Shown here piece by piece: positions 2,721 through 3,943 of a stretch of DNA of 5,163 nucleotides. Each line of letters begins with the position of its first letter. Position 1 is the stretch's first letter. This DNA comes from a bacterium (GTDB lineage Bacteria > SM23-31 > JAUVVT01). The stretch is taken from assembly GCA_030616165.1 (NCBI GenBank), contig JAUWXV010000262.1, positions 1-5,163 on the forward strand, read 5' to 3'. The translations under genes were made by a program, and so were the position numbers. Under the pieces are notes generated by a model. That model saw nothing but the letters and a program-made list of their open reading frames with translations. It did not search any database and was not told the DNA's origin.

Positions 2721-2740
2721 TAAAAAATTCTAAAAAATAA

Positions 2741-2891
2741 GGTAATGTCAAAAGTTCTATGAAAAACGAGGATAAAGTATGAAACCACAGAGAGGAGAGA
2801 ATAGCATTTCTCTTAACTCATTGATGTTTCCGCCACAGTCGGACTCTGCCTGCCCTGTGGGTGTTCCCCGTGGTTAAATTTTGACAATACC
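2741..2891. mobile_element. MITE-like non-autonomous insertion, 151 bp
   Basis: The ends are inverted repeats: GGTAATGTCAAAA at 2741-2753 and TTTTGACAATACC at 2879-2891, whose complement GGTATTGTCAAAA matches at 12 of 13 positions. The flanks form an imperfect 8-bp direct repeat, AAAAATAA (2733-2740) and ACAAATAA (2892-2899), 7 of 8. The interior has about 51% G+C over 2781-2876, far above its surroundings, and encodes no transposase. It sits between the DUF362 promoter and its ribosome site. Together these suggest a miniature inverted-repeat element mobilised in trans. Insertion-sequence families that end in GG and make 8-9 bp duplications (IS1 and IS1595 types) are candidates, but I cannot assign one. 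The AT-rich flanks make the target duplication weak evidence alone. A structured leader RNA is the main alternative. A 32-codon frame inside (2779-2877) is probably incidental. Confidence 0.55.
2783..2875 (+). repeat. Nested inverted repeats forming a possible branched RNA fold
   Basis: AACCAC at 2783-2788 is complementary to GTGGTT at 2870-2875 and would close a domain. Inside it are a 6-bp hairpin (2796-2801 with 2808-2813, loop TAGCAT) and a second hairpin (CCACAG 2833-2838 with CTGTGG 2855-2860). GGG at 2859-2861 could instead pair with CCC at 2866-2868. This is the GC-rich core of the putative insertion and would be part of the DUF362 leader transcript. I do not recognise a named riboswitch. 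Confidence 0.45.
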
Positions 2892-2914
2892 ACAAATAAA
2901 GAAAGGAATGATTT

Positions 2915-3943
2915 ATGAAAGAAAAAATGAATCAACTAAACCGTAGAGAATTCCTTAAAATATCGGGCTTATCTATAGCAGCGAATAACGTTTGGGGAAT
3001 GAATTTTACTCCATTTCTGCAAGATAAAACGAGTTCTCAAATAAGAAATAGAGTAAAAAATCCATATACAAGAAATGGAAAACCGATAATGGTGGTTGTT
3101 GAAGGAAATGACGTAGACCAAATGTTGAAAAAGGGATTTGAAATACTCGGCGGTATTAAAAAGTTATGTGGAACAAACAAAGAGATAATTCTCAAACCAA
3201 ACTATGTCTCTGCAGAAAGATATCCAGAAGTTACTGCAACGGATACAATCTGCTCAATGATAGACATTATTAGAAAATCGGACAGTTACAACATCACAGT
3301 TGCCGATGCAAACTCAAGTAGAGAGTCTACAATTGAAACCTTCAAAAGAACAGGATTGAAAGATGAGTTGGACAGACGTAAAGTTGCTACTGCTGACCTC
3401 CATGAATGTCCCAGTGTAAAAATTAAATCTCCTGAATGGAAATATATGGACGAGGTAGAAGTTTTTGATAAAATAATGGAAGCTCCGGTCGTAATAAATA
3501 TGCCGACATTAAAACAGCATTCACAAACAGGATTCACCTGTTCTCTTAAAAATCTTATGGGATGTATTCCCAGGACCAATAGAAGAGTAGCTCATAGAAA
3601 TAAAGATAGAGGAAAATACTCGAGTGCAGAAATGCTCGTAAGGATGAGATACTCGATAGCAGAACTCGGACATGCAGTTAATCCTGAATTGACCATCATC
3701 GATACAAGGAAGATAATGTTGAATAGTCATCATTTTAGCGGCGGCGGGACATTAAAAGATGATAATAAAATTATCATTTCAGGTGATGCTGTTGCTGTGG
3801 ATGTTTATGCGGGAAGATTGATGAAAGAACATAATCCAAACTTTTCAGAGACCTGGGTAACGCAAACTACTGAACTGGCACAAAATCTTAAATTAGGTAT
3901 CGCCGATTTAAATAATGTCGAAATCATTAAAGTTCAAGCATAA
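2915..3943 (+). CDS. DUF362 domain protein with twin-arginine signal motif
   Basis: A 342-residue protein of the DUF362 family (PF04015). Residues 9-15 (NRREFLK) match the twin-arginine consensus, and 16-23 form a short hydrophobic stretch, so export by the Tat pathway in folded form is likely. The h-region is short and no clear AxA cleavage site is seen, so it may stay membrane-tethered or be poorly cleaved. DUF362 marks include ILKPNYVS at 92-99, the block VVINMPTLKQH at 192-202 with CSLKNLMGCIP at 209-219, DAVAVDVYAG at 291-300, and the closing LGIADLNNVEI at 327-337. The five cysteines (85, 113, 165, 209, 217) are scattered. The ferredoxin-like CxxCxxC clusters fused to some family members are absent. 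The family's reaction is not established. AAGGA at 2903-2907 lies 7 nt before the ATG; Met5 is a possible but less well-placed start. It is divergent from DUF6599, and the two may share a process. No terminator is seen downstream. Confidence 0.85.
   Translation: MKEKMNQLNRREFLKISGLSIAANNVWGMNFTPFLQDKTSSQIRNRVKNPYTRNGKPIMVVVEGNDVDQMLKKGFEILGGIKKLCGTNKEIILKPNYVSAERYPEVTATDTICSMIDIIRKSDSYNITVADANSSRESTIETFKRTGLKDELDRRKVATADLHECPSVKIKSPEWKYMDEVEVFDKIMEAPVVINMPTLKQHSQTGFTCSLKNLMGCIPRTNRRVAHRNKDRGKYSSAEMLVRMRYSIAELGHAVNPELTIIDTRKIMLNSHHFSGGGTLKDDNKIIISGDAVAVDVYAGRLMKEHNPNFSETWVTQTTELAQNLKLGIADLNNVEIIKVQA

Follow-up and report, generated by a model that had tools for sequence, protein, structure and literature searches.

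A 151-bp segment in the leader of a DUF362 gene

In the window (the whole stretch of 5,163 nucleotides analysed in this work), a gene with a PF04015 match (DUF362; 2915-3943, + strand, ATG at 2915, start region 2915-2943) is preceded by a segment that is far richer in G+C than the intergenic sequence to its left and that ends in inverted repeats. What is this segment, and how did it come to lie in front of this gene? The segment comprises 151 bp (2741-2891, + strand) with a G+C content of 43.0%, versus 14.1% in the intergenic sequence to its left. It is delimited by 13-bp terminal inverted repeats (12/13 matching positions), the left one being GGTAATGTCAAAA (2741-2753, + strand) and the right, gene-facing one TTTTGACAATACC (2879-2891, + strand). 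The 8-bp sequences outside these ends, AAAAATAA on the left (2733-2740) and ACAAATAA on the right (2892-2899), match in 7/8 positions. A comparable inverted repeat with matching flanks was found in none of 60 dinucleotide-preserving shuffles of 2556-2960, and the longest open frame inside the segment has only 38 codons.

Upstream of the segment a promoter-like site of the DUF362 gene, TTGACA-17-TATATT (2692-2720, + strand), scored 11/12 in a consensus scan; shuffles of this AT-rich region also yield about two passing sites, and the function of the site is unproven. Downstream, the Shine-Dalgarno region AAGGA (2903-2907, + strand) has its GG at 2905-2906, that is, 14-15 nt past the segment. The segment sits between the promoter and the ribosome site of the DUF362 gene and thus spares both. 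A preliminary description, made from the sequence alone, had placed a promoter, a step in G+C and both pairs of repeats, terminal and flanking, at these positions, and all of this held; it had also predicted that excision would leave a normal leader of about 30 nt. With the segment and one of the flank copies taken out, the leader measures about 29 nt. The claim that an insertion lengthened the leader is supported, while the description's suggestion of altered DUF362 expression remains a conjecture. A terminator-like hairpin lies within the segment at 2855-2873 (0.0 expected in shuffles), with a weak T tail; it might conceivably lower the expression of DUF362.

The segment belongs to a multi-copy family with 8-bp target duplications

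Copies were sought in the genome of origin (G000; 3.74 Mb, 343 contigs, 90% complete) and in a genome of the sister genus (G001; 70% complete). The former yielded about 70 matches, among which several copies had both ends, and the latter 24; at least a dozen element copies are present in G000 and a similar number in G001, while matches were absent from all four same-class genomes searched. The copies that were read with their flanks share a single left end, GGTARTGTCAAAAGTTCTATGAAAAACGAGGATAAAATATGAAACCACAGAG, and a single right end, CTCTGTGGTTAAATTTTGACAATACC, around variable middles.

The length of the target duplication was determined in 18 two-ended copies (15 CACAGAG-bodied copies from G000 and G001, one REP-bodied copy and two from other lineages) by comparing the bases that immediately precede the left end with those that immediately follow the right end. 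Flank identity reached 0.78 for a compared length of 8 and stayed within 0.34-0.46 for the other lengths (5-7 and 9-12), and permuted flank pairs gave 0.39 at length 8. Flanks matched in at least 7/8 positions in 11 of the 18 copies, a level that mismatched pairs reach at a rate of 0.003. A flank match peculiar to length 8 implies that the element transposed, duplicating 8 bp of its target; the ends shared by other genomic copies, together with this register test, exclude a chance origin of the repeats in the window. Two copies (C174 and C218) would show a better duplication if an end were moved one base outward. Most copies come from two incomplete, fragmented assemblies, and they were found by similarity to the window copy.

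The best G001 ortholog of the DUF362 gene (63% identity) has no element in the leader before its Shine-Dalgarno sequence; at this locus another copy has an end farther upstream, on the other strand, at the contig edge. The preliminary description had taken the segment for a transposon-derived insertion, a reading now supported by the multi-copy family, the shared ends, the 8-bp target duplications and the element-free leader of the sister-genus ortholog. Its proposed search for other genomic copies with the same ends and for an empty site in relatives succeeded on both counts, and neither observation that would have refuted it (lack of a second copy, or conservation of the segment in place) was made: copies exist, and the segment is not conserved there. 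The third search that it proposed, for a transposase gene bounded by the same ends, found none; the largest bodies carry a GxxExxY or a RAYT gene. It had missed both the GxxExxY gene of the full-length parent and a target motif at a fixed distance 3' of the element.

One further locus of G000 (C145, 1480-1560 of its stretch) lacks a right end, and its left end runs straight into the start codon of what we take, by the look of the sequence, to be a coding gene for a sialate O-acetylesterase. A deletion may possibly have turned the leader of the element into that of the gene.

The window copy arose from a GxxExxY-bearing element by internal deletion

Full-length copies (C144, 585 bp, and C259) carry a gene of the GxxExxY family. 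The left end of the element contains a seven-codon ORF, MKNEDKI*, whose stop overlaps the start codon of GxxExxY, an ATG served by a ribosome-like site, GAGG; the GxxExxY frame is open from this ATG in C259 and in a G001 copy (C8), and in C144 it is disturbed by a small CTGCCTGCCCTGTGGG insert. Reading of the window sequence shows the same arrangement, with a short ORF, MKNEDKV* (2759-2782, + strand), whose stop overlaps the ATG at 2779. Alignment of the window copy with C144 and C259 shows that the first ~50 bp and the non-coding tail (2793-2878, + strand, with small inserts TTCCGCCACAGTCGGA at 2828 and CTGCCTGCCCTGTGGG at 2846) were kept, while the GxxExxY gene is gone. The deletion junction is CACAGAG (2786-2792, + strand), a sequence present on both sides in the parent; the same junction occurs in C125 and in C68 of G001, and a similar one in C56. 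The window copy thus descends from a GxxExxY cassette of about 0.55 kb by deletion between two CACAGAG repeats.

The CTGCCTGCCCTGTGGG inserts (2846-2861 in the window; C147, C112, C149 and C259 in G000) recur inside CTCTGTG sites of the element and are also clustered elsewhere; they represent a small repeat of a separate kind. The usual left end is missing from the GxxExxY copy C259 (1370-1960 of its stretch in G000), which lies instead between direct repeats of 24-26 bp. These consist of the leader and start codon of the gene downstream, which we take to be hisG by the look of its sequence, so that GxxExxY is started from the duplicate.

The right end faces a gene start at a fixed distance from the Shine-Dalgarno sequence

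A start codon follows the right end at a short distance in 26 of 27 cases, the remaining one being cut by the contig end, and in the printed flanks the ATG lies 21-25 nt beyond the right end in 24/26. The Shine-Dalgarno sequence is a tighter anchor for this offset than the ATG. Among 23 right ends of G000 and G001, chosen by repeat sequence alone without regard to GG, 20 have a GG exactly at +14/15, usually as part of GGAG, so that GGAG follows the 8-bp duplication after a spacer of 5 bp. In C21, which is among the 20, the offset is satisfied by the second GG of GGAGG; the three others of the 23 (C174, C237 and C259) miss it by a base or more. Two copies (C56 and C82) keep the GG at +14 though the motif is GGATGG, and the flank of C82 looks like a piece of a coding frame, which suggests that the motif, and not the ATG, is read. 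Since copies without a gene obey the rule too, it cannot stem from a requirement for GxxExxY expression.

The rule was followed into three genomes of other named lineages (bacterium Hainich-H32, Deltaproteobacteria GLR311 and Nitrospirae NC_groundwater), found by a scan of public genomes with a GxxExxY alignment; their GxxExxY relatives show 71-74% identity, and the genomes contain many further matches. GG lies at +14/15 in 7/9 of their right ends. Two of the nine (L210 and L211, identical to L131 and L130, respectively) were already known when the rule was formed, and the other seven were new. In one of the nine (L217) the 8-bp duplication is perfect, ATAAAGGA. The two ends that depart from the rule are L215, in which GGAG is two nucleotides nearer, and L222, which has no Shine-Dalgarno sequence. 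The latter copy (G042 C161) ends directly before a tmRNA-like 5' end, which we take, by the look of the sequence, to be that of a tmRNA gene. The orientation and distance rule is thus that the right end faces a gene start with GG at +14/15.

Several genes downstream of right ends (C117; G001 C107, C113, C139, C335) begin with twin-arginine-like signals (RREFLK, RRDFIK, RRSFLK), which may merely reflect a gene type common in these genomes.

Other cargo between the same ends and the missing mobilising enzyme

Between the same ends, a 694-bp copy of G000 (C283; L246, 1300-2100) carries a RAYT gene, with a duplication of 7/8 and GG at +14, and the ends and the rule also recur around REP-like GTCATTCC palindromes (C178 and one end of C18). 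The same ends around GxxExxY, RAYT and REP-like bodies imply that the mobile unit is the pair of ends and that the interior is cargo. A RAYT gene at C302 (L029) shares the left end, whose ATGAAAAA serves as its start codon. No REP-linked Y1 transposase gene is present in the window copy that would place it in the REP/RAYT group. RAYT as an obligate mobiliser was rejected, as G001 has elements and no detected RAYT gene (with that genome 70% complete).

All sites with perfect ends in G000 (90% complete) belong to the element family, none with a transposase between the ends, and no transposase-bearing copy was found among the fetched sites with one end mismatched. A perfect-end match in G001 (L093) was discarded, as it looks like a coincidence inside a coding region. 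Profiles of IS256 (PF00872), IS1595 (PF12762), IS1 (PF03400) and ISL3 (PF01610) had no match in G000, other families being outside the search and G001 being excluded from the PF00872 search; derivatives of these four families were rejected as mobilisers for want of a cognate transposase in the element's own genome. We infer a trans-acting transposition machinery, as yet unidentified, that would recognise the ends whatever their interior.

The GxxExxY protein and its loci

The protein of the full-length copies belongs to the GxxExxY family (TIGR04256; Pfam PF13366, PDDEXK_3). Its predicted structure (mean pLDDT 89.5) resembles PD-(D/E)XK nucleases; the best structural match on a second look was SSO0001 (PDB code: 4ic1), which we take to be a Cas4 protein (Z 9.7, 4.3 Å over 100 residues). 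Foldseek E-values were only about 0.002, and a GxxExxY profile search of PDB sequences gave nothing significant. Across 31 relatives, D81, K93 and Q105 never vary, and E91 and Y109 hardly do. A D-ExK-QxxxY pattern is characteristic of RecB/Cas4-type nucleases, and these residues fit it.

Inverted repeats above the 99th percentile of control windows surround the gene in 70% of 79 loci from many phyla, and the flanking arms frequently consist of arrayed ACCACAGAG-N-CACAGAG units or their near variants. These loci are those of the closest relatives and not a random sample, and for them the Shine-Dalgarno rule is undecided. Both neighbours share one direction in 50/66 loci, compared with 84/151 for other genes there. 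Inspection of individual loci (L130-L209), including archaeal ones, often found the gene between inverted arrays (also of CACGGAG, CGCAGAG and CACAAAG) and often tightly between operon genes. Another GxxExxY gene of G000 (C295, 1459-1910 of its stretch) has different inverted repeats, ATCCACAGATTGCACAGAT, and lies between what we take, by the look of the sequence, to be leuC and leuD, directly upstream of the Shine-Dalgarno sequence of the second of these genes. No paper treating GxxExxY as part of a mobile element was found in the titles and abstracts of the open-licence literature.

Proposed mechanism and alternative explanations

The 151-bp segment of the window is very likely a non-autonomous transposable element that makes an 8-bp target duplication and inserts in a directed and oriented manner before a GGAG-type motif. 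We propose, as the most likely mechanism, that a trans-acting recombinase binds both ends of the element, the right end being tied to GGAG recognition and placed 13 bp before the motif (8-bp duplication, 5 bp, GG) in one orientation; this tie would make insertion oriented and fixed in distance. The motif is almost always a gene's Shine-Dalgarno sequence. The GxxExxY-bearing parent of about 0.55 kb lost its gene by deletion between its two CACAGAG repeats. Directed insertion would leave promoter and ribosome site of the host gene intact, and full-length copies would become the first gene of the host transcript. The ends, the duplication, the orientation and the distance rest on observation; the trans action, the reading of GGAG as DNA and not as RNA bound by ribosomes, any advantage to the element from an upstream host promoter and a spared ribosome site, and any effect on expression are inferred. 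The system probably targets the Shine-Dalgarno region by recognising GGAG, with insertion 13 bp before this motif in a fixed orientation, perhaps by means of a GGAG-binding protein or of initiating ribosomes contacted on nascent mRNA.

The alternative that survives best, unlikely as it is, is that GxxExxY is itself the mobility enzyme and moves the window copy in trans. The gene codes for a predicted nuclease and is the only one in full-length elements; element and gene co-occur in the genomes of other named lineages; and the genes of many phyla sit between inverted arrays. Against this, the same ends carry RAYT or REP-like sequence without GxxExxY, which shows that it is not needed in cis, and no PD-(D/E)XK nuclease is known to us to join strands by itself.

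Survivorship, that is, loose insertion of which only copies sparing coding sequence and ribosome site persist, is very improbable. Insertions in genes are usually harmful, and the coding-like flank of C82 indicates that insertion outside leaders can happen. Survivorship would permit any site upstream of the Shine-Dalgarno sequence, yet a single exact offset was found in 20/23 right ends, in one orientation, and C56 and C82 keep it with a GGATGG motif. Targeting rather than selection remains an inference: survivorship alone does not account for the single-base offset, and part of the preference for leaders must come from selection against insertions that do damage.

Equally improbable is a target at the level of RNA, in which the machinery would contact initiating ribosomes or the Shine-Dalgarno/anti-Shine-Dalgarno helix on the mRNA and the element would enter just 5' of the ribosome. 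The closer tie of the offset to the Shine-Dalgarno sequence than to the ATG and the co-directionality of the copies with transcription speak for it; the clean 8-bp duplications and terminal inverted repeats, typical of DNA transposition, speak against it, as do the GGATGG motifs of C56 and C82 and the coding-like flank of the latter. It is all but excluded that the segment is native to the DUF362 gene, as a regulatory leader or a structured RNA, since, although the segment folds as RNA better than shuffles (z -2.5) and contains the hairpin described above, it has no Rfam match (on which ground, with its absence from the sister-genus ortholog's leader, a regulatory RNA was rejected), the same sequence precedes many unrelated genes with 8-bp duplications of their own, and the inverted ends account for the folding.

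Relation to known mobile elements

The directed element proposed here resembles MITEs in being short and without a transposase gene, in its terminal inverted repeats, target duplication and many copies, and in its internal deletion derivatives; the window copy itself meets the MITE criteria of terminal inverted repeats, target duplication, multiple copies and lack of an internal transposase gene. It differs in that no autonomous partner has been identified and in its fixed orientation and fixed distance to the Shine-Dalgarno sequence. With mobile insertion cassettes it shares a passenger gene without a transposase between the same ends, a feature met by the full-length copies C144 (GxxExxY) and C283 (RAYT) and not by the gene-less window copy; the lending IS is unidentified. 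Full-length relatives of the element encode a member of the GxxExxY family, which has been annotated as a protein only and not as part of a mobile element.

Landing at a fixed short distance and in a fixed orientation is also seen in the IS1202 family (ISAjo2), at dif sites, with a 5-bp duplication and its own transposase (PMC10132070). Tn7 likewise inserts at attTn7 at a fixed short distance and orientation, with a 5-bp duplication and its own transposase. In contrast to the IS1202 family, whose criterion of a 5-bp duplication at dif is not met, the element described here has an 8-bp duplication, a GGAG target and no transposase, and unlike both IS1202 and Tn7 it targets a short motif present before most genes. 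To our knowledge, no described element lands 13 bp before GGAG in a fixed orientation, and none with a Shine-Dalgarno target specificity was found in the open-licence literature searched, which is weak evidence of absence. Short gene-less mobile elements are already known as MITEs; the new part of the finding, as far as this literature goes, is the landing rule.

Biological meaning

Were insertion truly directed to ribosome-binding sites, elements would enter transcription units without breaking translation; this could explain how operons in many phyla came to hold cassettes that lack a promoter, such as GxxExxY genes. These genes, which many genomes carry and which have no known role, would gain the context of a mobile element. 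The landing rule is numerical and directly testable, and it offers a handle for finding the missing transposase. If the Shine-Dalgarno sequence is indeed what is recognised, every gene with such a site would give the element a place to land that is safe and transcribed, and the gene's own translation start would be retained.
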